DNA of 30,151 nucleotides. Origin: a virus. The notes under the pieces are model-generated. The model was not told the origin of the DNA. It saw only the letters and a program-made list of their open reading frames with translations, and did not search any database. The position numbers and the translations under genes are program-made. The stretch spans positions 1-30,151 of the IMG/VR virus record IMGVR_UViG_3300021356_000115; one strand, 5' to 3'. Below, in pieces: positions 2 to 27,130 of the stretch (positions are counted from its first letter, which is position 1; every line of letters starts with the position of its first letter).

Positions 2-211
2 GTGGTAGTTCAAAATCCTCTTGTAGCAGTTCCTAGTGCTCAAGGTCAGATTGGATTTGCTCCCTGGTCAGTGCTCTCAAAAGAAGACGATGGTATCAAA
101 GTTGAAAAACAATACGTTGTCTATTTGATTGACACGCGAGACGAGATCGTAGAGAATTATAAGAAGATCTTTTCCCCGATTGAAACCCCAAGCAAGAAAC
201 TGATTCTATGA
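2..211 (+). CDS. Sm-like small protein, C-terminal part (5' end outside window)
   Basis: This reading frame is open to the left window edge, so only the last 69 residues of the protein are visible. The pattern (N/D)P-x-V, then PW, then a beta-rich stretch and a C-terminal helix ending in an E-x-Y motif matches the two complete small proteins at 3000-3371 and 3310-3570. I place all three in the Sm/LSm-like family seen in cyanomyoviruses, whose members form RNA-binding rings elsewhere. The stop overlaps the start of the next gene, which suggests translational coupling. The family call is by eye and the true start is unseen, so an unrelated small beta-barrel protein remains possible. Confidence 0.55.
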   Translation: MVVQNPLVAVPSAQGQIGFAPWSVLSKEDDGIKVEKQYVVYLIDTRDEIVENYKKIFSPIETPSKKLIL

Positions 212-1326
212 TGCAAGTATCTGAGGATGATGCCGTATGGGCGGCAAATGAATTTATTGATTACTTCAAAAACTTTTCCTCCATTGAGGATTATCTTCGT
301 TATGTGAAAAAAGAAGTCATCGCTCAGACAAGTCAATTGACTCCACTTCAGGATGAATTCTTTAATGAGGATATTCATCCTAGCGAGATGGAGTTTGATA
401 TTAAATTTGTTGGTACTCGCTTTCAACAGGCAGTACCGCAAGAACACTATGTCAATCTGTTGAGAGCAGTGTCCTCTCATAATAACGAAAGTAATATTCC
501 TGGCAGAGAACTGCGTTGGATGATCTTTGAAAAGAACACTCAGCAGTGTCTTGGATTCATTCGCTTTGGTTCTCCCACTATCAATTCAAAACCCAGGAAC
601 CTGTGGTTAGGTAAGGCACCTAATCTGTCTGTATTCAATCGCCATGCTGCGATGGGATTTGTGATTGTCCCGTCTCAACCTTTTGGATATAACTATCTTG
701 GCGGTAAACTGTTGGCACTTCTGTGCTGCTCCCACTTTGCCCGTGAGACTTTGAATGAAGTCTTTGAGAAAGACATTGCTCTGTTTGAGACAACCTCCCT
801 GTATGGATCTACCACGTCTGCTTCCCAGTATGACGGTCTCAAACCCTTTATGAGGTACAAGGGTCTTACGGAGAGTAAGTTCCTCCCCCTGCTTCACGAA
901 GAGGTCTTTCACCGCCTGCATGACCGATTCACCCTGTTGAACAACAACACTCCCTTGACAGACAACAGAGCGTCTTCTAAGAAGATGAAACGGCAGACTA
1001 AGATGATCTCCATTATCAAGAAGTCTCTGCAGGATCAGGACAAACTGAAGGAGTTCAATGAGGTTATCAATACTGCATTTGGACTGACCCAGAAGAAGCG
1101 ATTCTATATCTCCGACTATGGATATTCAAATGTCCGTGAAGTGATTATGGAAGAGCAGGATGAGTTGGTCCGTGGTCCTAACTGGGATAAGTATCACTTG
1201 GAGAATATTATTTCTTGGTGGAAGAAGAAAGCAACCAAGAGATATGATAAACTTAAGCAGGAAGGTCGGTTCAGGACCAAGGTAGAACTCTGGACAGAAG
1301 ATGATGACATTCAAATTATTAGATAA
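208..1326 (+). CDS. DruA/DUF4338-like protein
   Basis: This is a 372-residue protein. Its central region (about residues 100-225) has the order of blocks I associate with the DUF4338 domain of DruA from the Druantia defence system: an LGFIRFGSP strand (115-123), an R..LWLG block (130-135), N..VFNRH (139-146), FVIVPSQPFG (151-160), a helix with LGGKLLALL (164-172), and ETTSLYGS (194-201) before a YDG...G.T segment. The C-terminal third (about 255-372) is basic and probably helical. Starts at 208 and 211 are both possible; 208 gives an overlap with the upstream stop. The gene lies directly before gp62, so it travels with the replication operon. Its function is unknown. The resemblance is distant, and I infer a family link, not a defence role. 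Confidence 0.5.
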   Translation: MMQVSEDDAVWAANEFIDYFKNFSSIEDYLRYVKKEVIAQTSQLTPLQDEFFNEDIHPSEMEFDIKFVGTRFQQAVPQEHYVNLLRAVSSHNNESNIPGRELRWMIFEKNTQQCLGFIRFGSPTINSKPRNLWLGKAPNLSVFNRHAAMGFVIVPSQPFGYNYLGGKLLALLCCSHFARETLNEVFEKDIALFETTSLYGSTTSASQYDGLKPFMRYKGLTESKFLPLLHEEVFHRLHDRFTLLNNNTPLTDNRASSKKMKRQTKMISIIKKSLQDQDKLKEFNEVINTAFGLTQKKRFYISDYGYSNVREVIMEEQDELVRGPNWDKYHLENIISWWKKKATKRYDKLKQEGRFRTKVELWTEDDDIQIIR

Positions 1327-10359: not shown

Positions 10360-10432
10360 GGGGTTATAGCTCAGTTGGTAGAGCGCCTGCTTTGCAAGCA
10401 GGATGTCAGCGGTTCGAGTCCGCTTAACTCCA
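10360..10432 (+). tRNA. tRNA-Ala (anticodon TGC)
   Basis: A complete cloverleaf is visible: acceptor GGGGTTA with TAACTCC (one G-T pair), D arm GCTC/GAGC, anticodon stem CCTGC/GCAGG with loop TTTGCAA (anticodon 10393-10395), T arm AGCGG TTCGAGT CCGCT, discriminator A. CCA is not encoded. It is separate from the main tRNA group near 22-24 kb. Confidence 0.96.
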
Positions 10433-10434
10433 TT

Positions 10435-10441
10435 CTAAATA
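10435..10441 (+). promoter_or_regulatory. CTAAATA late-promoter variant
   Basis: This box lies 20 bases before the ATG of the 463-residue gene and directly after tRNA-Ala. The same CTAAATA box stands before the gene at 11892, and both genes look late. The distance to the start is short, so the leader would be only about ten bases. Confidence 0.45.
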
Positions 10442-10460: not shown

Positions 10461-11852
10461 ATGGCAGCACTAAAGCTTGCAGACTTTGCTGGAATATTGA
10501 CTGCGATTGAAAAGATTCCTGGCATTACCATCGAAGATAAATCTACCTCCAGATCTAAGAAACTTCTTCTGAAGGCAGATGATAGGATGACTCTGGCATC
10601 TCAAGTTAATGCCTTTTTAGATGAGAGAAAAGTAAAATATTCTTCCAAGATTGTATCTGGATCTAGTTTTCCCGCGACAATTGTTGTGGTTGATGGTGAG
10701 AAAATTAAGCAAGCAGTATTCATATATAAACCTGGAAAGAAAAAGGCAGCGGATGCTAAGACAACTCTGATGCAAGAGCAGGCATCGACTTATGTCTTCA
10801 AACGTGTGTTGAAAGATAACAAGACGTGGCCATCAACACAAGCGATGATGGAAGACAAGACAACGATGGATGGGATCAAGGAAGTCTATCCGTCTGTTGA
10901 TTATGAATGGTTGGATGTATTTTGGAAACAGCATGTAAGAATGTTCAAAGAGTTTGGATCTCCCTCCTTTGATATATTTGACCACAGTGGTAGTGGATCC
11001 TTTATGGATTACATCACTGATATTATTGTCAAAAAATATGGGATTAGTAAAAAGGATAACTGGGATCCTGCTGACATGTGGTTGATCAAAGGATCTATAA
11101 AACAAATTACCGATGTTATTGACAGGACTGTTGAAGGTAGCAAGGGAACTCAGACTATTGAGGAACTTAACGCTGTTATGCGATCCATGTATCAAAAGAG
11201 AAAACTTGTCGGAGTATCTCTGAAAAAAGTTTCTGGACAGCAAGCAAAGTGGGAAGAGTTTAATGTTAAAGAATTAACTCTTGATGAAATTGATGATTAC
11301 AACTTTCCCAATGTTGAGACTAAGATTAGATTGGATCCTGACATGTCTCAAGACACTGTGGTTAAATTGACTAAGGATAATGGTAAGGGATATAAGTTTC
11401 AGATCAAGGCAAACAACTCTACAGGATTCAGTAATCTGAAGTGGGAAGCAACTCAGATTGGCGCTGGTGCTGCTAGAGGTGGTAAAGCACAGGTTGATCT
11501 TGTGGTTCAACTATTGAAAGATGCTGGGCAACCATTTGAAAAAGCAAATGGTCAATATCCCAAGACCAGAGATGAATATATTAAAAGGAAGTCCGAGTTT
11601 GAATCTATGTTTGACATGGTGAACAAATATGCGGACACTCAAGTCAAGACTAAGGAAGAATTTAGTCAGAACATTGAAGGGTTATTCTTAGATAAACCAT
11701 ACGTTGCTAATGCAAAACTTATACAACTTGCATTTCTTGATGCTGTCTATAAGATTACTCCCAAGAAAAAACAGCAAGAGGTTTGGACCGATATTGTATT
11801 CCTTGCTATCAAGAAAGGTAATAAGTTTGGACCATTTGGAAAGTTGTATTAA
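10461..11852 (+). CDS. Unknown 463-residue protein, late-type gene
   Basis: I cannot name a family with confidence. The protein is soluble, Lys-rich, without signal peptide or membrane segment. Two segments stand out: WDPADMWLIK (201-210) and LVGVSLKKVSG (249-259). A strand with a conserved Asp followed about 45 residues later by a strand with Lys loosely recalls PD-(D/E)xK nuclease-like folds, though the expected acidic residue before the Lys is replaced by Ser-Leu. The C-terminal quarter reads KLIQLAFLDAVYKITPK and ends in basic residues. It follows a CTAAATA box and precedes the capsid-targeted nucleotidyltransferase, so it may be a late or virion-associated protein. The nuclease idea is speculative. 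Confidence 0.75.
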   Translation: MAALKLADFAGILTAIEKIPGITIEDKSTSRSKKLLLKADDRMTLASQVNAFLDERKVKYSSKIVSGSSFPATIVVVDGEKIKQAVFIYKPGKKKAADAKTTLMQEQASTYVFKRVLKDNKTWPSTQAMMEDKTTMDGIKEVYPSVDYEWLDVFWKQHVRMFKEFGSPSFDIFDHSGSGSFMDYITDIIVKKYGISKKDNWDPADMWLIKGSIKQITDVIDRTVEGSKGTQTIEELNAVMRSMYQKRKLVGVSLKKVSGQQAKWEEFNVKELTLDEIDDYNFPNVETKIRLDPDMSQDTVVKLTKDNGKGYKFQIKANNSTGFSNLKWEATQIGAGAARGGKAQVDLVVQLLKDAGQPFEKANGQYPKTRDEYIKRKSEFESMFDMVNKYADTQVKTKEEFSQNIEGLFLDKPYVANAKLIQLAFLDAVYKITPKKKQQEVWTDIVFLAIKKGNKFGPFGKLY

Positions 11853-11860
11853 TATCAACG

Positions 11861-11867
11861 CTAAATA
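11861..11867 (+). promoter_or_regulatory. CTAAATA late-promoter variant before the nucleotidyltransferase gene
   Basis: CTAAATA lies 31 bases before the ATG at 11892, in a 39-base intergenic gap. It matches the box before the gene at 10461. Confidence 0.45.
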
Positions 11868-11891: not shown

Positions 11892-13115
11892 ATGAAAAGT
11901 TTCTTTCAGTTCCTGGGTGAGGCTTCGCAGGCATCTGCACAGGCAAAAAAACTGAATCTGAAAAGTGACGGACACGGTGGTTGGTTAGACTCCCGTGGAG
12001 AGTTTGTTGCGAAAACGCAAGATGGCAAACTCAAGTTCTTCAATCAAGGACAGAAACCTGGTGAAAAAGATCCTGATCAGGTAAGAACGAAGAACAATCA
12101 ACAACCTGTTGCTACTCAGAATCAATCTAAAAAGCAAGAACCACAAGCAACCAAGAAGGCAGAACCTAAACCAGAAGAAGGTGGTGAAGGTGGAGAAGAT
12201 ACTCTGACTGTAACCTTTGGTCGCTTTAACCCACCAACAGTCGGTCACGAAAAGTTGATGAGTGCTGCAAAGAAAGCATCTGCTGGCGGCCCTCTGAAAG
12301 TATATCCATCCAGAACACAGGATCCTAAAAAGAATCCACTGGATCCTGATATGAAGATCTCCTTTATGAAGAAGATGTTCCCTGATTATGAGGAGAACAT
12401 TATCAATGATTCTGAGATGAAGTCCATCTTCAATGTTCTTCAAGCAGCAGATCAAGAAGGATATTCAAGTGTAAACATTGTTGTTGGTTCAGATCGTCAA
12501 GCAGAGTTTGAGAACTTGGCAACCAAGTATAATGGGGAACTTTATAACTTCGATCAGATCCGTGTTATTTCTGCTGGTGTAAGAGATGCAGATGCTGAGG
12601 GTGTAGAGGGTATGTCTGCATCCAAGATGCGTAAGGCAGTTATGGATGATGACTTTGAGTCATTCCGTAAAGGTACTCCCAAGAATCTTGACGACGGCGA
12701 TACCCAAGCACTGTTTGATGCAGTCCGCACAGGTATGGGCGTCAAGAAGAAAAAGAAAGAAGTTGCAGAGATGTGGGAGATCGCCCCTAGATTTGATACT
12801 AGAACTCTCCGTGAACAGTATGTTAATGGTTTGATCTATCGTATTGGTGATGTTGTCGAGAGTCTCCACACTGGTCTGATTGGTAAGATCATTCGTAGAG
12901 GAACCAATCACTTGATCTGCGTAACCAAAGAAGACTATATGTTCAAGTCTTGGATTCGTGATGTTATGGAATCAGTTGTAAACTATCCTGGTCCTTCGGG
13001 TGTTTCTGGAGAAAAAAGAGAAGTCGGAACTGATGCCTATCGTGAGTATGCTATGAAGATGACAGGCACTAAAGAAATCAAGAACTTCATAAATAAGTAT
13101 AAGAAAAAAAAGTAG
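11892..13115 (+). CDS. Nucleotidyltransferase (NMN adenylyltransferase-like) with capsid-targeting-like N-terminus
   Basis: The 407-residue protein has a cytidylyltransferase/NMNAT-type HxGH-fold domain: FGRFNPPTVGHEKLM (109-123, the TVGH being the nucleotide-binding motif) and MSASKMRKAV (241-250), matching the second family motif. This domain would transfer a nucleotidyl group, perhaps to nicotinamide mononucleotide or another phosphate substrate. The N-terminus MKSFFQFLGEA resembles the targeting peptide of T4 internal head proteins (MKTYQEFIAEA), and LGE matches the gp21 protease pattern with cleavage before A11. A Gln/Lys/Glu-rich linker (about 20-103) joins it to the enzyme. Residues about 310-360 form an extra small domain with a GLIGKIIRRG turn. 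Packaging in the capsid is inference. Confidence 0.8.
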   Translation: MKSFFQFLGEASQASAQAKKLNLKSDGHGGWLDSRGEFVAKTQDGKLKFFNQGQKPGEKDPDQVRTKNNQQPVATQNQSKKQEPQATKKAEPKPEEGGEGGEDTLTVTFGRFNPPTVGHEKLMSAAKKASAGGPLKVYPSRTQDPKKNPLDPDMKISFMKKMFPDYEENIINDSEMKSIFNVLQAADQEGYSSVNIVVGSDRQAEFENLATKYNGELYNFDQIRVISAGVRDADAEGVEGMSASKMRKAVMDDDFESFRKGTPKNLDDGDTQALFDAVRTGMGVKKKKKEVAEMWEIAPRFDTRTLREQYVNGLIYRIGDVVESLHTGLIGKIIRRGTNHLICVTKEDYMFKSWIRDVMESVVNYPGPSGVSGEKREVGTDAYREYAMKMTGTKEIKNFINKYKKKK

Positions 13116-13119
13116 AACA

Positions 13120-14523
13120 ATGTCAACCAATCCTTTGAATGATATTTCCAAGGTATACTTGGATCAGATTGCTGAGAAAAAGAAGGACGATACCTATCTT
13201 GAACCTGACATGAAGAAGCGTCAGGCAAACAATGAGAAAGCACGTAAGGAACTTGCAAAGGGTCCTCAAATGAAGAACCCACATTTTGAGGAGACTCAAA
13301 TGGAAGGTGTTCGTGACACTGATCCTGAAAAGGGAACTAAAGAGCGTAAGGCACGCCTTGAGAAGAAGCGTGGTATGAAACTGGATGATCATCCTCAGTA
13401 TGCTAAGGAAGCACTTGATCCTGTTGGCAAGGAAGATGGTGATGTTGATAACGACGGAGATAAGGATTCTTCAGATAAGTATCTGCTGAAGCGCCGTAAG
13501 GCCATCGGCAAGGCAATGAAGAAGAGACTCAAGGAAGAAAGAGAGTCACTGTCTGAAGTTATTGATGACAATCCACCAAAGACTGTAAAAGAGAAGAAAG
13601 TAAATAACAAGATCGTCATCAATCCTAAACTGGGTGAAGCAGTAGAGGAAATTGGTGGAACTCTTATCGAACATATCGAAGTCGATGAGATGGATTTCAT
13701 CGTTGAGAGTGTATATGATGAACTGATCGAAGAGGGTTACTCTGAAGATGATGTTGAGGCAGCAATTGAAAATGCTATGGAGGCAACTGTAACCTTCGGG
13801 CATGACACTAAGAATCTTAAGAAAGACGGTTCTCAAGTCGGTTCTAGGAGAAAATTCCTCAAGAGAAAGGCTGGAGAGTTTCTTCAGAAGGCAAAGAAGA
13901 AAGCGGGAATGGCATCTGCTAAGGCACAAGTCGCTGCTTATAATAAGGGCAGAGAAGTCAAGCAAGCAGTTGCAGATAAGGCAAGAGCAAAGAAGCAAGG
14001 TGTTAAAAATTTCATCAAGAAGCAGGCTCAAAAAGTTGTTGACAAGATGAGCGAAGAGGCGGTAGAAGAGACCTACACTGTCACTAATGCTGATAAGAAA
14101 GCAAACACTCCTGCATATCAAGCATATAAAGCAGGTAAGAAAAAGAAGGACGGCACCCCAATGTATAAGGCTGCTGATCACATGGGAGAAGAGGCATCAA
14201 TGTCTCAGCAAGAACTCATGCTTCAGAAAAAGAAAGCAAGAATCGACAGAATGATTGCTATGAAAAGAGCACAGGAACTCTCCAAGACAAAGGCAGGCGG
14301 AGACACCCCTGCTAAGGCAATGGGTGAAGGGTTGTCTATTGATCAGCAGATGAAAATTTCTCAGGATTACAATAGAAAGTCTCCTGAAGAAAAGAAGGCA
14401 ATGAATAAGAAAGTCATGGGCATTGTCAAAAAGGTAAGACAAGAGAAGGACACCAGAACAGACGCTCAAAAAATGACTGATGCAACTGGTCCTCGCCCTG
14501 GTTCACGTTATAGAGGTGACTGA
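13120..14523 (+). CDS. Lys/Glu-rich late protein with EF-hand-like loop
   Basis: This 467-residue protein is extremely rich in Lys, Glu and Ala, and largely helical. A loop DVDNDGDKDSSD (108-119) has the Asp spacing of an EF-hand or dockerin calcium site and is followed by a basic helix. An acidic section (about 175-225) and a very basic section (about 245-315) alternate, resembling T4 head-core or internal DNA-associated proteins. It starts four bases after the nucleotidyltransferase stop and overlaps the DUF3008 gene by one base. A scaffold or internal head role is inferred from composition and context; it could also be a DNA-binding protein released at infection. Confidence 0.7.
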   Translation: MSTNPLNDISKVYLDQIAEKKKDDTYLEPDMKKRQANNEKARKELAKGPQMKNPHFEETQMEGVRDTDPEKGTKERKARLEKKRGMKLDDHPQYAKEALDPVGKEDGDVDNDGDKDSSDKYLLKRRKAIGKAMKKRLKEERESLSEVIDDNPPKTVKEKKVNNKIVINPKLGEAVEEIGGTLIEHIEVDEMDFIVESVYDELIEEGYSEDDVEAAIENAMEATVTFGHDTKNLKKDGSQVGSRRKFLKRKAGEFLQKAKKKAGMASAKAQVAAYNKGREVKQAVADKARAKKQGVKNFIKKQAQKVVDKMSEEAVEETYTVTNADKKANTPAYQAYKAGKKKKDGTPMYKAADHMGEEASMSQQELMLQKKKARIDRMIAMKRAQELSKTKAGGDTPAKAMGEGLSIDQQMKISQDYNRKSPEEKKAMNKKVMGIVKKVRQEKDTRTDAQKMTDATGPRPGSRYRGD

Positions 14524-15011
14524 TGCCTGCAGTATCTAAAGCACAGCAACGTTTTATGGGTATGGTCTATGCCGTAAAGAAGGGGGAGATGTCTGCTCCC
14601 TCTTCTGAAGTTGCGAAGGCTGCTGCTTCTATGTCAAAGAAAGATGCTAAGGACTTTGCATCAACCAAGCATAAGAAACTTCCTGAGAAAAAAGTTGCAA
14701 AGGAAGCATATTATGGTGGTGAAGAGCAAAGGAAAAAGGATGAGAAGAAGAAAAAGATTGATGCCTTTATGGATAAGGCAATGCCAAAGCGTACCTTTGA
14801 TCAACTAGGTAGAGAGACTGATCGCCGCACTGGTAAACTGAAAGAGAGTAAGTACGACAAGTACGATAAAGAGAAGAAAGAGTTTGCTAAGTCAGATCGT
14901 AAGATGAAATTTGGAAAGTTCTATGACAGAGCAAAGCAATCTAGATTGCGTCCTGGTGAAGTCAAAAAGTATGATAAGAAACTTGGTAGATACGTTTCAA
15001 ACAAAGATTGA
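14523..15011 (+). CDS. DUF3008-type protein with C-terminal extension
   Basis: The N-terminal 55 residues match DUF3008: PAVSKAQQRFMGMVYAVKKG, then SEVAKAAASMSKKDAKDFAS and TKHKKLPEKK. DUF3008 proteins are normally about 55-75 residues; here about 105 further Lys/Tyr/Asp-rich residues follow, including two KYDK-type repeats. The family's function is unknown. It is the third in a run of Lys-rich genes (11892-15011) that I take to be head-associated. Start and stop overlap the upstream gene by one base. Confidence 0.7.
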   Translation: MPAVSKAQQRFMGMVYAVKKGEMSAPSSEVAKAAASMSKKDAKDFASTKHKKLPEKKVAKEAYYGGEEQRKKDEKKKKIDAFMDKAMPKRTFDQLGRETDRRTGKLKESKYDKYDKEKKEFAKSDRKMKFGKFYDRAKQSRLRPGEVKKYDKKLGRYVSNKD

Positions 15012-15321: not shown

Positions 15322-15867
15322 ATGGCACTTTGGGGGAATAATGATTCCATCCGTGGCGGTGGAACAGTAGCACTTAATTATCAGACTGGAGCTGTTACCG
15401 GAACTGCAACCACCTTTGGACAGACTGGAGCAATTCAGGAAGGCGATATTATTCGCTTTGGTACTAGAGACAACGTTTATTTTGGTGATGCCGTTGTCGT
15501 CAGCGTTGCAAGCACCACTTCATTGACGATTGGTTCTACTGCAGGACTGAGTGGAGTTGCAATCGCAGGAACCACCTATGTTGGTTCACAACTTCCTAAG
15601 TCTTCTATTCTTGATTCCAAGTATAGTGAGAAGTCTGGTGTTGGCGCTAACGATTCATACATCTATGGTGTTGCATCTGAAGGACTGGACAACGCACAGT
15701 CTTCTAGTTTCGCACTGACTCACGCTGGTTGGGTTGGAGTTACTACCTACATCGATGCTTCTGGAAACTACAGAGTTAAGTCTGAGACTCTTGTCGCAAT
15801 GTCTGGTATCACCACGGGTAACGCACCTGCGTTCCCACCTGGTAACGAATACGGCGGCGTAAGCTGA
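15322..15867 (+). CDS. Virion structural protein, beta-rich
   Basis: This 181-residue protein begins MALWGNNDSIRGGGTVALNY and is rich in Thr, Ser, Gly and Val, with short strand-turn repeats (TGAVTGTATTFGQTG, then EGDIIRFGT and TTSLTIGSTAG). I recognise the MALWGN opening and composition from cyanophage virion proteins, but not its place in the particle; a head decoration or tail component is possible. An exact late promoter precedes it, and GGAAG is the ribosome site eight bases before ATG. It has no signal peptide or membrane segment. Confidence 0.7.
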   Translation: MALWGNNDSIRGGGTVALNYQTGAVTGTATTFGQTGAIQEGDIIRFGTRDNVYFGDAVVVSVASTTSLTIGSTAGLSGVAIAGTTYVGSQLPKSSILDSKYSEKSGVGANDSYIYGVASEGLDNAQSSSFALTHAGWVGVTTYIDASGNYRVKSETLVAMSGITTGNAPAFPPGNEYGGVS

Positions 15868-22270: not shown

Positions 22271-22344
22271 GACTCGTTAGCTCAGCTGGATAGAGCAACT
22301 GCCTTCTAAGCAGTCGGTCGTAGGTTCGAATCCTACACGAGTCG
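22271..22344 (+). tRNA. tRNA-Arg (anticodon TCT)
   Basis: Acceptor GACTCGT pairs with ACGAGTC, D arm GCTC/GAGC, anticodon stem ACTGC/GCAGT with loop CTTCTAA (anticodon 22305-22307), T arm GTAGG TTCGAAT CCTAC, discriminator G. CCA is not encoded. It decodes AGA and AGG. Confidence 0.96.
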
Positions 22345-22384
22345 TTAATAATATTATAGATAGTAAAAGTCTTAAAGTAGTAAA

Positions 22385-22693
22385 ATGTCTCTTACTTATA
22401 CTTGGAATATTGTCAATTTACAAAGCAATACTTCTGACGGTATTGTATACCTTGCTGAATTCGAAGTTACAGCAACTGATGGTACTAATAGTACTGTTAC
22501 TAATCAATCTGTTAATTTGGATGAACCTGCAGAAGGAGATACTGTTATTCCTTATGCTAATCTTACCGAGAGTGTTGTTCTTGGTTGGGTACAAGATAGA
22601 GTTGTAACTTCTGATATTGAAACTGAAATTCAAGGATTTTTCTCTGCAGATGTCGATAGACAAAGTACAGTTACATATGGCACACCTTGGTAG
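22385..22693 (+). CDS. Conserved beta-rich protein, 102 residues
   Basis: The product begins MSLTYTWNIVNLQSNTSDGI and alternates short strands with Thr, Asp and Asn-rich turns; it has no membrane segment. Small proteins opening MSLTYTW are, as I recall, widespread in marine T4-like phages and may be virion-associated. It sits between tRNA-Arg and the promoter for tRNA-Gly, and it may be read from the tRNA promoters. The role is unknown. Confidence 0.65.
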   Translation: MSLTYTWNIVNLQSNTSDGIVYLAEFEVTATDGTNSTVTNQSVNLDEPAEGDTVIPYANLTESVVLGWVQDRVVTSDIETEIQGFFSADVDRQSTVTYGTPW

Positions 22694-22700
22694 TCATAAC

Positions 22701-22729
22701 TTGACACCTTAACAAGAATACTTTATAAT
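22701..22729 (+). promoter_or_regulatory. Consensus promoter TTGACA-17-TATAAT for tRNA-Gly
   Basis: Exact -35 (22701-22706) and -10 (22724-22729) hexamers are separated by 17 bases. The sequence AAGGTATTCAA after the -10 (22733-22743) also follows the tRNA-Arg promoter (22260-22270), so the two are copies of one promoter cassette. Confidence 0.9.
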
Positions 22730-22749
22730 CATAAGGTATTCAATTGAAT

Positions 22750-22821
22750 GCGGAGTTAGTTCAGCGGTAGAACGCTATCCTTCCAAGTTAGATGTCGTCG
22801 GTTCGATTCCGATACTCCGCT
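22750..22821 (+). tRNA. tRNA-Gly (anticodon TCC)
   Basis: Acceptor GCGGAGT pairs with ACTCCGC, D arm GTTC/GAAC, anticodon loop CTTCCAA (anticodon 22782-22784), T-arm loop TTCGATT, discriminator T. The anticodon stem CTATC/GTTAG holds one T-T mismatch. CCA is not encoded. Confidence 0.93.
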
Positions 22822-22837
22822 TTCCTTCTTTAGGAAC

Positions 22838-23002
22838 ATGAAACCAGTAGAAATACTTCTACTCATATCAGAGTTAGAAGGATCTTATCAACATACTAAA
22901 AAACTTGGTTTCGACCAAGACTCCGCCATTCTCCGTGCTATGTGTGATAAGTATCACAAACTGTATTTCAAACTAAAGAGGGAACAACATAATCCTCTAT
23001 AG
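22838..23002 (+). CDS. Small hypothetical protein, 54 residues, overlapping tRNA-Asn
   Basis: The product begins MKPVEILLLISELEGSYQHT and is helical with a basic end. AGGAA six bases before the ATG at 22838 is a fair ribosome site. The stop codon TAG at 23000-23002 lies inside tRNA-Asn, whose acceptor strand forms the last codons of the gene. The conserved look of SELEGSYQHTKKLGFDQDSA supports coding. Processing of the tRNA would cut the mRNA before its stop codon. Confidence 0.6.
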   Translation: MKPVEILLLISELEGSYQHTKKLGFDQDSAILRAMCDKYHKLYFKLKREQHNPL

Positions 23003-23065
23003 CTCAGTTGGTAGAGCAGGTGACTGTTAATCACCCTGTCCCTGGTTCGAGTCCAGGTGGAGGAG
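22993..23065 (+). tRNA. tRNA-Asn (anticodon GTT)
   Basis: Acceptor TCCTCTA pairs with TGGAGGA (one T-G pair), D arm GCTC/GAGC, anticodon stem GGTGA/TCACC with loop CTGTTAA (anticodon 23026-23028), T arm CCTGG TTCGAGT CCAGG, discriminator G. CCA is not encoded. Its first ten bases overlap the preceding small gene. Confidence 0.96.
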
Positions 23066-23087
23066 TTAAAGGAATTGGGATAAGATA

Positions 23088-23735
23088 ATGATCTGTGAAG
23101 TTTATGATGACAAGTTTGATCCCTTGTATTTGCATCATTTGTTTGAAAATACTATATCAAGACTTCCATATGACTTTACCAATGTTGCAAATAGAGATAC
23201 TTACCCTTATGGATTTAGTGGATCACACCGCCTAGTTGGATGTACTGTTTTTAATAGAGACGGATTAAATCGTATCACTAAGATAGAACAAGAGGGGTAT
23301 GATGAACTTTATAAGATGTATGAAATTATTGAAAACGGAATTCTTGGGAGAAAGTTTTATCTTTCCAATATTGCTGTAAACTTACAAACTAAAGATATGG
23401 ACGGCACTTGTCATGCAGATGCCGCTGAAGGAGAAGATGATGAATATACTATTCTAGTAATGTCCAATCCCGTATGGAAGAAAGAGTGGGGTCCTGCTTC
23501 TTTTCAATTACTAGAAAAATATGATAATGATTCCAAGGTTATTGAAGACCACGAATATGTTCCTGGGAGAGTTCTTGTTATTCCTTCACCTCATCCTCAC
23601 AGAGGTCTTGCTCCAATTGAACGGTATGTATATCGGACTTCTATTGTATTCAGAGTCACACCAAATTTTGAAAAACATATCCCTTCATTTCATTCCCGTA
23701 GAGGGTCGTCAATTAAACCACATATGTATCGTTAA
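23088..23735 (+). CDS. 2-oxoglutarate/Fe(II) dioxygenase, prolyl-hydroxylase-like
   Basis: The 215-residue protein has the HxD...H...R pattern of 2OG-Fe(II) oxygenases: H109 and D111 in GTCHADAAEG, H171 in PHPHRGL, and R183 in YVYRTSIVFRV as the 2-oxoglutarate anchor. Strand LSNIAVNLQ and VLVIPSP support the double-stranded beta-helix fold. Such enzymes are common cyanophage auxiliary genes; the substrate (protein side chain, nucleobase or small molecule) is unknown. It lies between tRNA-Asn and the tRNA-Val promoter and is unrelated in sequence to the dioxygenase at 7442 apart from the metal motif. Confidence 0.8.
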   Translation: MICEVYDDKFDPLYLHHLFENTISRLPYDFTNVANRDTYPYGFSGSHRLVGCTVFNRDGLNRITKIEQEGYDELYKMYEIIENGILGRKFYLSNIAVNLQTKDMDGTCHADAAEGEDDEYTILVMSNPVWKKEWGPASFQLLEKYDNDSKVIEDHEYVPGRVLVIPSPHPHRGLAPIERYVYRTSIVFRVTPNFEKHIPSFHSRRGSSIKPHMYR

Positions 23736-23738
23736 AAC

Positions 23739-23767
23739 TTGACATCCATTTCAGGAAGTGTTATTAT
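23739..23767 (+). promoter_or_regulatory. Promoter TTGACA-17-TATTAT for tRNA-Val
   Basis: An exact -35 (23739-23744) and a five-of-six -10 (23762-23767) are separated by 17 bases, with the tRNA starting nine bases after the -10. It is the third tRNA promoter of this design, without the AAGGTATTCAA leader. Confidence 0.85.
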
Positions 23768-23775
23768 ATCACCAA

Positions 23776-23847
23776 GCCCGAATAGCTCAGCGGTAGAGCA
23801 TCTCGTTTACACCGAGGCGGTCGGCGGTTCGATCCCGTCTTCGGGCA
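23776..23847 (+). tRNA. tRNA-Val (anticodon TAC)
   Basis: Acceptor GCCCGAA pairs with TTCGGGC, D arm GCTC/GAGC, anticodon stem TCTCG/CGAGG with loop TTTACAC (anticodon 23808-23810), T arm GGCGG TTCGATC CCGTC, discriminator A. CCA is not encoded. Confidence 0.95.
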
Positions 23848-23855
23848 TATAAATA
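23848..23855 (+). promoter_or_regulatory. Late promoter TATAAATA directly after tRNA-Val
   Basis: An exact late octamer starts at the base after the tRNA-Val discriminator and lies 28 bases before the zinc-ribbon gene. It would give late expression of that gene and of the downstream tRNAs. Confidence 0.65.
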
Positions 23856-23875
23856 AATCACTTACAACCTGTATT

Positions 23876-24124
23876 ATGATTATCGTAAGATGCAAAGAAT
23901 GCGGCCGCGAACTAGTCAGCACTAGTAAACTCCAGAACTGCGGTTGCCCAAATCAAATGACTTTAATTGACAGTAAAGTTGGTGCTGTTGACTTGGATAA
24001 AGTAGTCATGGTATCATATAACAGAGAAGACAAGATTGATAGTGTCTTCTCCCGCGAAGAACTTGCGTATCAAGAGCAAAGAAGAAAGCGTAAAGTAAAG
24101 CGGTTGGACTTTGAAGTCCGATAG
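23876..24124 (+). CDS. Small zinc-ribbon-like protein
   Basis: This 82-residue protein has CKECG (6-10) and NCGCP (21-25), a likely four-Cys zinc site, followed by an acidic VGAVDLDKVVMVS segment and a basic C-terminal helix (EQRRKRKVKR). Similar small proteins with CKECG and NCGCPN are, as I recall, common in cyanomyoviruses; their function is unknown. The stop codon ends at the base before tRNA-Tyr. Confidence 0.7.
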   Translation: MIIVRCKECGRELVSTSKLQNCGCPNQMTLIDSKVGAVDLDKVVMVSYNREDKIDSVFSREELAYQEQRRKRKVKRLDFEVR

Positions 24125-24206
24125 GGGTAGGTGTCCGAGTGGTTAATGGAGGCGGACTGTAAATCCGCTGGCTCTGCCTACGGGGGTTCAAATCCCTCCC
24201 TGCCCA
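24125..24206 (+). tRNA. tRNA-Tyr (anticodon GTA)
   Basis: This class II tRNA has acceptor GGGTAGG with CCTGCCC, anticodon stem GCGGA/TCCGC with loop CTGTAAA (anticodon 24159-24161), a long variable arm, T arm GGGGG TTCAAAT CCCTC, and discriminator A. Bacterial tRNA-Tyr also carries a long variable arm. The preceding gene's stop codon abuts it. Confidence 0.94.
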
Positions 24207-24208
24207 TT

Positions 24209-24293
24209 GGAAAAGTGGTCGAGTGGTTGATGGCACTGGTCTTGAAAACCAGCGATGTGAGAGCATCCGTGGGTTCGAATCCCACCTTTTCCG
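24209..24293 (+). tRNA. tRNA-Ser (anticodon TGA)
   Basis: This class II tRNA has acceptor GGAAAAG with CTTTTCC, anticodon stem CTGGT/ACCAG with loop CTTGAAA (anticodon 24243-24245), a long variable arm, T arm GTGGG TTCGAAT CCCAC, and discriminator G. It follows tRNA-Tyr by two bases, so both probably come from one precursor. Confidence 0.95.
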
Positions 24294-24359
24294 TTTCAAT
24301 TACTACAGAAATTCTTAAGAAATAGTGTATCATCTATATACAGCTATACGTTAAGACAT

Positions 24360-24581
24360 ATGGCGCTATTTTATCTGCTAACGCTGACATTTGTTGTCTT
24401 AGTAGCGTATGCTGGGTATGATGCGACTATGCGATTAGTTGCTTATGCTGACCTAACAATCAGATATCAAATCATTCAGGTGAGAATGTACTTCATGCGT
24501 AGAAGACTCCAGAAGTCATTGAACCTAGATTTACAAGAACTCAAAAAGGAACGAAAAGCAAATGACCGATCTCAAAATTGA
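24360..24581 (+). CDS. Single-pass membrane protein, 73 residues
   Basis: Residues 2-19 (ALFYLLTLTFVVLVAYAG) form one clear membrane segment, followed by YDATMRLVAYADL and a basic helix with YFMRRRLQKSLN. The DATMRL...YADL...RYQ pattern is familiar to me from cyanomyovirus small proteins. It is the first of a run of tiny genes that overlap one another. The preceding 66 bases hold no clear promoter. Function unknown. Confidence 0.7.
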   Translation: MALFYLLTLTFVVLVAYAGYDATMRLVAYADLTIRYQIIQVRMYFMRRRLQKSLNLDLQELKKERKANDRSQN

Positions 24582-24834
24582 GAGAGTAGAATGTCCTAAG
24601 TGTGGGGCAATTTGGATTAATGGTGAGCACCGTTGGGGTGGCACTGGTGCGGTTGGAAATGAACTAGACTTAGCAGGTCTAGTTTGTAATAAACTAGGTG
24701 ATGAAAGGTGTATCAATCCAAGCAAAGGGATTGATGGGGGACAGACCTGGGCATGGCGTGCTGGGTTTATCGATGGTAAGATTGAGGAACGCCAAAAGAT
24801 GATGAACGAATTCAACAGTCTTGATGATGTCTAA
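24562..24834 (+). CDS. Small Cys-containing (zinc-ribbon-like) protein, 90 residues
   Basis: The protein begins MTDLKIERVECPKCGAIWIN; C11, C14, C42 and C50 could bind one zinc ion. The middle reads GNELDLAGLVCNKLGDERC and the end is charged and helical, with AGFIDGKIEERQ. It overlaps its neighbours by 20 and 8 bases. A conserved small phage protein of unknown role; a zinc ribbon is the only domain hint. Confidence 0.7.
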   Translation: MTDLKIERVECPKCGAIWINGEHRWGGTGAVGNELDLAGLVCNKLGDERCINPSKGIDGGQTWAWRAGFIDGKIEERQKMMNEFNSLDDV

Positions 24835-25018
24835 CACCCCGATTAGTAAAGAAGAAGTCCAAGAAATGATTGATACTGCGATACGCAGACACAATCGTAA
24901 TGCTGGAATGATTAGTATGTTCGTTGGTTTCTTTGTCCTTGGACTCTTCTCTGAAGGTTTACTGAGACTTATTGGAGTCATACCTCCCCTACTACCATGG
25001 CTACAAATCAACTTATAG
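24827..25018 (+). CDS. Single-pass membrane protein, 63 residues
   Basis: ATG 24827 is preferred; ATG 24824 adds one Met and is equally possible. A charged helix (SKEEVQEMIDTAIRRHNRN) precedes a membrane segment MISMFVGFFVLGLF (28-41) and a second apolar stretch ending PPLLPWLQINL. It overlaps the genes on either side by 8 and 22 bases. No function is recognised. Confidence 0.65.
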   Translation: MSNTPISKEEVQEMIDTAIRRHNRNAGMISMFVGFFVLGLFSEGLLRLIGVIPPLLPWLQINL

Positions 25019-25182
25019 TCGAATGGATTGGTATTGTCCTTGCAATAGTGTTTGGCATTACTATGTTTTGTCAAGGACACTTTATTCTACATGGTAAGAA
25101 TGGTTACAGACATTCTGAACGTGAACAGCAGAAAATGAAAGATGCTAGGAAACAAGTAGAAAAAGCAATCAAGGGAAAATGA
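24997..25182 (+). CDS. Single-pass membrane protein, 61 residues
   Basis: One membrane segment is clear (LIVEWIGIVLAIVFGITMFC, about 6-25), followed by a basic cytoplasmic-type tail ending in KQVEKAIKGK. It starts inside the preceding gene and overlaps the next by four bases (ATGA). Function unknown. Confidence 0.65.
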   Translation: MATNQLIVEWIGIVLAIVFGITMFCQGHFILHGKNGYRHSEREQQKMKDARKQVEKAIKGK

Positions 25183-25301
25183 ACGCTGACGAAAAGAGAG
25201 AGTTCTACAAAGGACTACGAGAGCGCATCAAACAACTTAGAATGGAACACTTGTTTGAGGAACCATGTCCACTTTACGAACCAGAGGATGATGACAAATG
25301 A
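25179..25301 (+). CDS. Tiny acidic protein, 40 residues
   Basis: ATG 25179 and the stop at 25299-25301 both lie in ATGA overlaps with the genes on either side, which supports real coupled translation despite the small size. The product begins MNADEKREFYKGLRERIKQL and ends in an Asp/Glu-rich tail. AAGGGAAAA precedes the start. No family is recognised. Confidence 0.55.
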   Translation: MNADEKREFYKGLRERIKQLRMEHLFEEPCPLYEPEDDDK

Positions 25302-25507
25302 ATCCAGTAGTATTAATTGCTTGTCTATCACCGATTGCAATCATATGGATTGTGATGAAACTCAGTTTATTGTTTTTCTCAGCGAATGATGAACGAAGGT
25401 ATGTCAAAGCAGAATCCAAAAAACCACACGGACCTTATGTGGCAGACCCATATGCAGACGTTGACGAAGAGGAAGAGGAGTATGGAGATCGCACAGACTA
25501 TCGATAA
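25298..25507 (+). CDS. Single-pass membrane protein with acidic tail, 69 residues
   Basis: The N-terminal half is a membrane segment (VVLIACLSPIAIIWIVMKLS, about 4-23, extending to residue 28); the rest is charged and ends in a DVDEEEEEYGD stretch. Start ATGA overlap with the 40-residue gene. Its last 26 bases overlap the next gene. Function unknown. Confidence 0.65.
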   Translation: MNPVVLIACLSPIAIIWIVMKLSLLFFSANDERRYVKAESKKPHGPYVADPYADVDEEEEEYGDRTDYR

Positions 25508-25616
25508 GGCCCTTGAGGAGTATTACTCTGAGAAGGGAGAACCTGTACCACAATGGAGAACTAAAAAGGATCCAGACTGGTGGATCGAATACCTACGCGA
25601 ACTGGAGGAAGAGTAA
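25482..25616 (+). CDS. Tiny charged protein, 44 residues
   Basis: I chose ATG 25482 because GAGGAAGAGGAG lies just upstream and the longer frame from 25386 is shadowed by the previous gene. The product begins MEIAQTIDKALEEYYSEKGE and has a DPDWWIEYLRELEEE end. Its stop overlaps the next start by one base. No function is recognised. Confidence 0.5.
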   Translation: MEIAQTIDKALEEYYSEKGEPVPQWRTKKDPDWWIEYLRELEEE

Positions 25617-25774
25617 TGCACGCTGCAGGACACTTTGCCGCATGGGTGTTAAATACTTGGTGGACCGTCGCCGTACTGGGATGGTCGCTCGTATTCGTTC
25701 CTATCATTGGAATGCATTTGGTTCATAAGAATGGATGGCAACATTGGGAACCTTTTGACAGGAAGCATAAGTAG
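25616..25774 (+). CDS. Single-pass membrane protein, 52 residues
   Basis: ATG 25616 shares its A with the preceding stop. Residues about 8-33 (ending AVLGWSLVFVPIIG) form a Trp-rich membrane segment, and a short His/Lys tail follows. It closes the membrane-microprotein group. A longer in-frame start at 25580 would overlap the previous gene and add charged residues. Confidence 0.6.
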   Translation: MHAAGHFAAWVLNTWWTVAVLGWSLVFVPIIGMHLVHKNGWQHWEPFDRKHK

Positions 25775-25789
25775 CGTTATAATAGTAAT

Positions 25790-25797
25790 TATAAATA
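25790..25797 (+). promoter_or_regulatory. Late promoter TATAAATA for virion genes
   Basis: An exact late octamer lies 59 bases before the ATG at 25856, and GAGGGGA (25837-25843) provides the ribosome site. It marks the change from small early-type genes to late structural genes. Confidence 0.75.
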
Positions 25798-25855
25798 TTG
25801 AAAGGATATAGACTAAATTTCCTAATGGAAAATAAAGAGGGGAAATTATAACATT

Positions 25856-27034
25856 ATGATGACGCCATCCGAACTCTTCAACAACGTGAATGAAGTTGTT
25901 GAAGTCGTCGAAGAATCGATTGAAGATAAGCAGGTACTGGAAGAGGACATCTCTCATTCAGTATCATTGATTGATGGTGCCTTCAGAAACATTCAGGAAC
26001 AGATCCTGAATTCAAATAGAAAGGAACTGTCTCCTTACAAAGATCAGGTTATTGAAGTTTATAATCTCTGTAAGGATATTAAAGAGAATCAACTTCCTAG
26101 GTATAAGAAGGAAGTTCTTCAGAGTGATCTGAGAACAGAGTCTAGAATTACTGAACTCAAGAAAGAGTTGTATGAAACTCTTGAGCAAAGAATTACTGAG
26201 ACAGAAGAAACTATCAAGGTCTACTTCAGAGAAGAGATCAAGGGTGTCAATAAACTCAGAGCAAGTGTTCTTGCAGTAGAGGAATATATTGGTAAGAATC
26301 AAAAGACAATCCTTGAATTGAGAAAGGATGTCTTCGCAGAATTGAGAAGAAAGGATGTTACTTCTGAGACCACTCAGAACATCATCAATAAGAAGTTAGA
26401 TGAGATTGGTAAAGAGTATGAAACTCTGAGTGAAAGTCTTCTGAGTGATCCTCCTTCTACAGATAATCCTGATCCAATTACTCCATTAGATCAAGACTTT
26501 GTAACTCTGGATCAACTTAAGGATCACTATCGTCTCTTTGTCAATAGAGTTCAACAGCAACTTTATAGTATTGGTGGCGGCGGTGAGACCCGACTTGAGT
26601 TCCTGGACGATATTGATAGGGACACTGCTCTGATTGATGGTAGAGTTCTTAAGTATGATTCATCTGGTTTGACTAATGTCGAAAACTCAGACACTTACTT
26701 TGATTGGAGTTGGCAGACAAATACAAGTGAGCAGATTGATGCTCTGAAAGGATTTGCTTTCAACACTAGCAACTCTAACTATTCAGCAACACAATGGCAG
26801 GATCCTAACCCTGGTAGCACTAAGTTCTCTATCAGATACCATTCTAATAATACTATTGATCTCTTTGATGAATCAAACAGTGAGGTTATTGCTACTAAAG
26901 ATACAAATGGTGATGGCAATCCTATCTACATCAGTTGGGTAGCAGGTGGTGCTACAAATAATCAAGATCAAATGGTTGATGACTTCTTTGGTGGTGGTGA
27001 TGTTGGTATTGCCTTGACAACCACTGCAGTTTGA
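25856..27034 (+). CDS. Virion structural protein with coiled coil and GGGG hinge
   Basis: The 392-residue protein has a long helical region (about 1-195), with heptad-like repeats between about 90 and 195, an acidic linker, then FVTLDQLKDHYRLFVNRVQQ (215-234) followed by GGGG (240-243) and LEFLDDIDRD. The C-terminal part is Asn, Thr and Ser-rich and beta-like, with an NDGDG-type turn. The QQQL...GGGG hinge also occurs in the next gene, and I recall it from other cyanophage tail or fibre proteins. ATG 25856 and 25859 are both possible. Assignment to tail fibre or baseplate is inference. Confidence 0.75.
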   Translation: MMTPSELFNNVNEVVEVVEESIEDKQVLEEDISHSVSLIDGAFRNIQEQILNSNRKELSPYKDQVIEVYNLCKDIKENQLPRYKKEVLQSDLRTESRITELKKELYETLEQRITETEETIKVYFREEIKGVNKLRASVLAVEEYIGKNQKTILELRKDVFAELRRKDVTSETTQNIINKKLDEIGKEYETLSESLLSDPPSTDNPDPITPLDQDFVTLDQLKDHYRLFVNRVQQQLYSIGGGGETRLEFLDDIDRDTALIDGRVLKYDSSGLTNVENSDTYFDWSWQTNTSEQIDALKGFAFNTSNSNYSATQWQDPNPGSTKFSIRYHSNNTIDLFDESNSEVIATKDTNGDGNPIYISWVAGGATNNQDQMVDDFFGGGDVGIALTTTAV

Positions 27035-27052
27035 TATAAACTGTTGTGGTAA

Positions 27053-27126
27053 CGGGACGTAGCTCAGTTTGGTAGAGCACCCGCTTTGGGAGCGGGCGGC
27101 CGTAGGTTCAAATCCTATCGTCCCGA
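27053..27126 (+). tRNA. tRNA-Pro (anticodon TGG)
   Basis: Acceptor CGGGACG pairs with CGTCCCG, D arm GCTC/GAGC, anticodon loop TTTGGGA (anticodon 27087-27089), T arm GTAGG TTCAAAT CCTAT, discriminator A. CCA is not encoded. It stands alone between two late virion genes, 18 bases after the first one's stop codon. Confidence 0.95.
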
Positions 27127-27130
27127 CTGA

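Follow-up and report, generated by a model that had tools for sequence, protein, structure and literature searches.

We identified a gene in a fragment of a T4-like cyanophage genome whose product is probably an internal head protein, namely an adenylyltransferase that would be made late, targeted by an N-terminal tag, cut by the protease gp21 and ejected with the DNA. The fragment analysed, hereafter the window, is 30,151 nucleotides long (IMG/VR record IMGVR_UViG_3300021356_000115) and the gene lies at 11892..13115 on the + strand. We propose that the enzyme is expressed from its own late-type promoter and that a ten-residue capsid-targeting sequence would draw it into the prohead core, gp21 cutting after E10. 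The mature protein would be a NadM/NadD/CoaD-type adenylyltransferase with a small module tethered to its N-terminal side by a flexible linker and an SH3-like domain on its C-terminal side. It would exit the head with the DNA and, within minutes of the start of infection, may act on a small nucleotide substrate. Cleavage, ejection, substrate and cellular role are what we infer here; the presence of relatives in virions was already known before this analysis.

The window is closely related to Synechococcus phage S-SM2, with which it has in common the order gp43, uvsX, gp41, mazG, the present cytidyltransferase gene, gp61, nrdA and nrdB. The 407-residue product, which begins MKSFFQFLGEAS, matches PHROG 395 (phrog_395 / T4-GC190 'cytidyltransferase'; E 9e-105), whose cyanophage members are annotated as cytidyltransferase or NMNAT. 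Matches were found in 533 phage records, the best being S-SM2 (74%) and S-SCSM1 (73%). Upstream on the same strand is a phrog_1462 gene (10461..11852), preceded by CTAAATA at 10435-10441, whose product is weakly homologous to virion protein 90 of S-SCSM1 (22%, E 6e-5). Downstream, also on the + strand, are a basic modular protein homologous to S-SCSM1 virion protein 92 (13120..14523; 38% over ~290 columns), a DUF3008 protein homologous to virion protein 93 (14523..15011; PF11450, 50/57 identical) and a homologue of virion protein 95 (15322..15867; 58% identity). Genes labelled virion protein (89-93, 95 and 97) make up most of the island around the orthologue in S-SCSM1.

Several other features of the region were observed. 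The product of ORF 13120-14523, like those of L082:21235-22644 and L104:9931-11493, is Lys/Glu-rich, has many hydrophobic-x-E stretches and is built of reusable modules, e.g. KEDGDVDNDGDKDSSDKYLLKRRKAIGKAM and WRNDLSEV, which are common to several cyanophage virion proteins. The slot upstream of the enzyme (window 10461-11852; L104:7328-8662; L082:18651-19970; L090:32671-34008) is occupied by several divergent or unrelated proteins that share a D...G(V/I)SLKK-like pattern, one of which, S-SCSM1 90, is a virion protein. By eye, D..GVSLKK suggested that ORF 10461 encodes a PD-(D/E)xK nuclease; this was dropped as unproven after a structure search, in which the model (pLDDT 74) returned weak Pol beta/lambda matches only (E 0.02, TM 0.2). 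Within the phage replication region, window positions 208-1326 encode a protein with a DruA-like domain (PF14236, E 1e-8), a component of Druantia defence. Eight tRNA genes are present (10360-10432 and 22271-27127; Ala, Arg, Gly, Asn, Val, Tyr, Ser and Pro), and a tRNA-Ala gene lies directly 5′ of the virion-protein island in the window and likewise in S-SM2 and S-SCSM1.

The protein is ordered as tag (MKSFFQFLGE/A, the slash marking the predicted cut), small folded module, disordered linker, adenylyltransferase domain, SH3-like domain and tail. An AlphaFold model shows the small module, the linker and the SH3-like domain, and is confident at residues 105-285. The small module (residues 20-52, KLNLKSDGHGGWLDSRGEFVAKTQDGKLKFFNQ; 11949..12047, +) is conserved, consists of beta strands (pLDDT ~90) and was not mentioned in the initial annotation; it has a similar counterpart in phrog_3561 and a weak one in the S-CREM2 virion kinase region. 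The same annotation had described a flexible linker, and residues 53-104 (12048..12203, +) agree with this, being disordered (pLDDT 32-40, thus below 50, at 58-100) and poorly conserved (identity 0.32). The adenylyltransferase domain (residues 105-285; 12204..12746, +) carries GRFNPPTVGH (110-119), KKNPL (146-150), GSDR (199-202) and SASKMR (242-247). It is followed by a C-terminal SH3-like beta domain of five strands (residues 300-362; 12789..12977, +; pLDDT 81-90 over 311-360), which S-WAM2 encodes as an ORF of its own and P-HM2 as part of a different protein, and by a basic tail (residues 363-407; 12978..13112, +), parts of which have low pLDDT.

A NadM/NadD/CoaD-type fold is secure for the modelled catalytic domain. 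Foldseek matched it to CoaD, NadD and NadM (E 1e-5 to 1e-4, prob 1.00); these three account for the best 50 structure matches, with the top ones split between CoaD and NadD. In 74 diverse relatives, residues G110, R111, N113, P114, G118, H119, G199, D201, R202, R231, S242, A243 and R247 are invariant, a set that includes all expected catalytic motif positions. The protein has both the fold and the two signature motifs of the HIGH-type nucleotidylyltransferase superfamily (PF01467). The Pfam model itself was found in 59/74 relatives, and on the window protein alone it scores 17 bits, under the cut-off of 21 that relatives exceed. A PDB sequence search with the family profile gave spurious matches only, all outside the catalytic domain. 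The literature label of glycerol-3-phosphate cytidylyltransferase was rejected on the identity of the best 50 structure matches, and no NCBIfam model of that kind was matched. Like NadM, NadR, NadD and CoaD, the protein has GxFxPxxxGH and SxSxxR motifs, with NadM-like GRF and KNP motifs; it differs from them in its extra tag, module and SH3-like domain and in having neither a Nudix nor a kinase domain.

The domain had been called NMNAT-like on the strength of TVGH and SASKMR. The fold and motifs stand, but the protein reaches no curated cut-off for NMNAT or CoaD families (TIGR00482, for NMN/NaMN adenylyltransferases, gives 13.1 bits vs 112.45) and activity on NMN is a prediction. Of the candidate reactions, conversion of NMN to NAD+ ranks first, and we put it forward tentatively. 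Evenly balanced, in our judgement, is the possibility that the packaged enzyme is a NadM-derived transferase that adenylylates something other than NMN, such as a different cofactor precursor, the end of an RNA or some protein, in concert with adjoining or fused nucleotidyl-transfer genes. Jumbo phages that bear NadV have a NadM-Nudix of their own 1-2 kb from it and, in addition, a separate tag-less copy of the adenylyltransferase, with SNUABM_50 encoding a NadR-like gene besides; because both are kept, the adenylyltransferase likely has a distinct job. The lack of NadV in ten complete T4-like genomes points the same way, as does the neighbourhood of the gene. A DUF6267 protein carrying KWDGAPA, a ligase-like motif, directly precedes the enzyme in 66/66 S-SZBM1-like loci, L255 has Pol-beta-type transferase domains fused ahead of the enzyme, and another transferase of this type, S-CREM2 gp156, is encoded near the orthologue gp154. 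Against a substrate other than NMN, the protein comes nearest to NMN/NaMN enzymes in sequence and motifs: among the 74 relatives the NCBIfam models matched were NadD (28), NadR (28) and CoaD (2), and the family profile aligns with phage NadM across the GRFxxxxxGHE and KNP motifs common to both.

We also noted the following about these neighbours and fusions. The DUF6267 proteins (upstream of the orthologue in L105-L184; L094:62-1294) contain KWDGAPA, EGYVAV/EGFVAI and KLV stretches, which we take to resemble ATP-dependent ligase motifs I, IV and V. A single relative of S-CREM2 was found in viral contigs. In L255, L253 and L257 a Pol-beta-type nucleotidyltransferase domain sits behind the tag (MKFKDYITES / MRFKDFINES) and before the adenylyltransferase domain. 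Relatives of 900-1136 aa (L208, L219, L200, L226 and L237) have a tag-like start, the adenylyltransferase, an SH3-like domain and, after these, a series of basic modules (DUF5824, HNH_3, DUF5754), often parted by acidic stretches ending LDE that may be further protease sites. By domain make-up only, some relatives, fusions of 500-1136 aa with HNH, DUF5824 and Pol-beta-type domains behind the tag, can be likened to phage polyvalent effector proteins (PMC5512222); they differ in that their core is a T4-type tag plus a HIGH-type adenylyltransferase.

The initial annotation further suggested that the enzyme acts against NAD-depleting defences. An injected NMNAT that restores NAD+ would accord with the NMNAT-like fold and early delivery, and genes for NAD+ salvage, NadV together with NadM or NadR, are reported from phages. 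Reported phage NadM, however, always co-occurs with NadV, and NMNAT alone is unable to rebuild NAD+ from nicotinamide. NadV was found in 0/18 T4-like records, of which ten are whole genomes, including T4, and the window's own genome is a 30 kb fragment; in jumbo phages NadV pairs with another, dedicated NadM. Moreover, the few copies packaged per virion would presumably be a small dose for bulk NAD+ synthesis. We therefore rejected this role as a guess that is not supported by gene context: that the enzyme counters NAD depletion is improbable, and restoration of NAD+ by an injected NMNAT is equally so.

Packaging in the capsid, which had been raised as a possibility, is strongly supported. Orthologues have been detected by mass spectrometry in virions of four cyanophages: T4-GC190 in purified S-SM1 (PMC3037559), a cluster number that S-SM2 gene 161 also bears; ORF91 of S-SCSM1 (PMC9602691), which is 73% identical to the window protein; S-SZBM1_140, with 2 peptides (PMC9146016); and S-CREM2 gp154, with 3 peptides (PMC10665884). 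On the evidence of these four orthologues from other phages, together with the T4-type tag and its LxE/A site, the window protein is very probably carried in the head. Two of these groups caution that abundant enzymes may contaminate CsCl-purified phage (PMC9602691, PMC10665884). The protein could accordingly be a common auxiliary metabolic enzyme that the infected cell produces and that was detected in virions as a contaminant, a reading to which the low peptide counts (2-3), the position of the gene among the replication genes mazG, gp41, gp61 and nrdA and its metabolic annotation in the literature all lend something. We consider it very unlikely, given four independent virion proteomes, neighbours that are virion proteins and the features of the N-terminus and promoter described below.

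The initial annotation had likened the N-terminus to the T4 capsid-targeting peptide, and this held up well. MKSFFQFLGE/AS is identical at 6/12 positions to T4 IPIII MKTYQEFIAEAS (MKTYQEFIAE/AS), most other positions are similar, and LGE/A replaces IAE/A. In T4, a capsid-targeting sequence is reported to be common to two proteins, IPII and IPIII (PMC9958956). A strict pattern, MK[ST][FYL]xxF[ILVM]xE[ASG], was run on candidate starts: in the T4 genome it matched IPII and IPIII only, and in S-SM2 only the orthologue and one hypothetical gene, SSM2_065. In the window the strict pattern matches the start of 11892-13115 only. A looser pattern was found in 18/38 orthologue clusters vs 15/791 other gene families from the same loci (p about 5e-18). 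Among 252 relatives examined the tag is kept even in far-diverged ones, in many of which it is joined straight to the catalytic domain, e.g. MILSFKEYIVEA and MQFKSFGEYVTEA.

The tag (residues 1-10; 11892..11921, +) ends in a predicted gp21-type site. In T4, gp21 trims the N-termini of the IPs and of Alt. In 81 near relatives, which are related sequences so that position counts and dN/dS are descriptive, L8 is present in 80/81 (one I), position 9 is N, S, T, G or K, E10 is present in 81/81 and A11 in 80/81. A free P2 between fixed L8 and E10 is the hydrophobic-x-E pattern that the gp21 rule predicts, in keeping with the earlier reading of LGE as such a site, and it is unexpected in a cytoplasmic enzyme. 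Moreover, dN/dS is lower in residues 2-12 (0.039) than in any other segment of the protein: the 20-52 module (0.077), the linker (0.607), the catalytic domain (0.106), the SH3-like domain (0.103) or the tail (0.281). The tag shows no drop in synonymous change, and therefore the constraint acts on the protein. The most strongly constrained part of the protein is thus a T4-type tag, contrary to what contamination by a metabolic enzyme would lead one to expect. By sequence, the protein has what marks a capsid-targeted protein, namely a ~10-residue IPII/IPIII-like N-terminal peptide and an (I/L)xE motif with a free middle residue, and we consider it likely that the tag is a targeting signal and is cut, the predicted cleavage falling after E10.

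The gene also carries a T4-type late-promoter-like box, CTAAATA, 24 bases before its start codon (11861..11867, +). TAAATA occurs <=60 bases upstream in 77/77 near orthologues, and in S-SM2 it precedes 12/22 structural genes vs 1/21 replication genes (Fisher p 0.0006), which again speaks against an ordinary metabolic gene. Among S-SZBM1-like relatives the box is found in 2/77 only, and there the enzyme gene follows, nearly overlapping, the DUF6267 gene upstream. 

Known head proteins offer two comparisons. The protein resembles T4 IPII and IPIII in its ~10-residue MK(T/S)(Y/F)xxFIxEA tag and hydrophobic-x-E site and, by prediction, in late expression (from the late-type box) and head location (from the mass spectrometry of orthologues); those are small non-enzymes of Escherichia phages, whereas the window protein is an enzyme and its family of tags is found across marine T4-like phages. 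T4 Alt is likewise a nucleotide-using enzyme that travels in the virion, is trimmed by gp21 in T4 and is predicted to act as soon as infection begins, but it is an ADP-ribosyltransferase of another fold without the tag (MELITELFDED). The cyanophage virion 'cytidylyltransferase / NMNAT' of S-SM1, S-SCSM1, S-SZBM1 and S-CREM2 (T4-GC190) is the orthologue itself. That the protein is mainly structural, its N-terminal peptide binding scaffold and its enzyme activity lost or incidental, would suit its basic, modular, virion-associated neighbours and the fusions of 500-1136 aa, but is highly improbable given that all superfamily active-site residues are invariant in the 74 diverse relatives and that catalytic dN/dS is low (0.106).

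Counting against the proposed targeting, the enzyme also has tag-less relatives consisting of the bare catalytic domain, in P-HM2, S-WAM2 and jumbo phages. In PA5oct the tag-less gene is not marked as detected by mass spectrometry, though both neighbours are; this fits the tag as packaging determinant, one case being weak evidence. Steering of a foreign protein into the head by the tag has been demonstrated in T4 alone. The virion papers on the S-SM1, S-SCSM1, S-SZBM1 and S-CREM2 orthologues describe no targeting signal or cleavage site, and a full-text literature search for capsid targeting and cyanophage returned nothing beyond a T4 head review. The address tag, as a targeting and cleavage signal, and its spread over marine phages seem new.

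Lastly, a tag profile was built from environmental relatives only, without T4, using BLOSUM-smoothed counts, and run on the start codons of six phages. Among 671 T4 starts it ranked gp2 1, IPIII 2, IPII 3, IPI 5, gp22 7 and gp24 10. A plain log-odds profile without smoothing left T4 IPII/III outside the top nine starts; their ranking thus depends on allowing similar residues. In S-CREM2, proteins detected by mass spectrometry took ranks 1, 2, 4 and 6 of 596 (gp154, gp13, gp136 and the SAM hydrolase gp6), and with the orthologue gp154 left out 3 of the top 5 starts belong to detected proteins (p about 0.005). The profile is an imperfect predictor: its top T4 match is gp2, and SSCSM1_30 has a clear tag yet no virion-protein label. 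S-CREM2 gp6 (L302:3837-5081), detected in virions and starting MKDFDSFLEE, is a plausible tagged anti-restriction cargo.

We hypothesise, at about even chances, that marine T4-like phages in general use the T4-type head-targeting tag as a readable address label, with which they deliver unrelated enzymes and multi-domain proteins, and that the injected proteome of uncultured phages is thereby predictable from sequence. That the cargo comprises the adenylyltransferase, the S-CREM2 SAM hydrolase, Pol-beta-type transferases and the 1000-residue fusions we hold just as evenly. Cyanophage virion proteomics has repeatedly found this enzyme without stating its route of entry or whether its presence is due to contamination. 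A conserved signal of the T4 type for targeting and cleavage would answer how it enters, and would make the question of contamination directly testable through one predicted N-terminal peptide. Should the signal prove general, one could draw up a list of the proteins injected by abundant ocean phages, and what the enzyme does as infection gets under way would become a concrete question.
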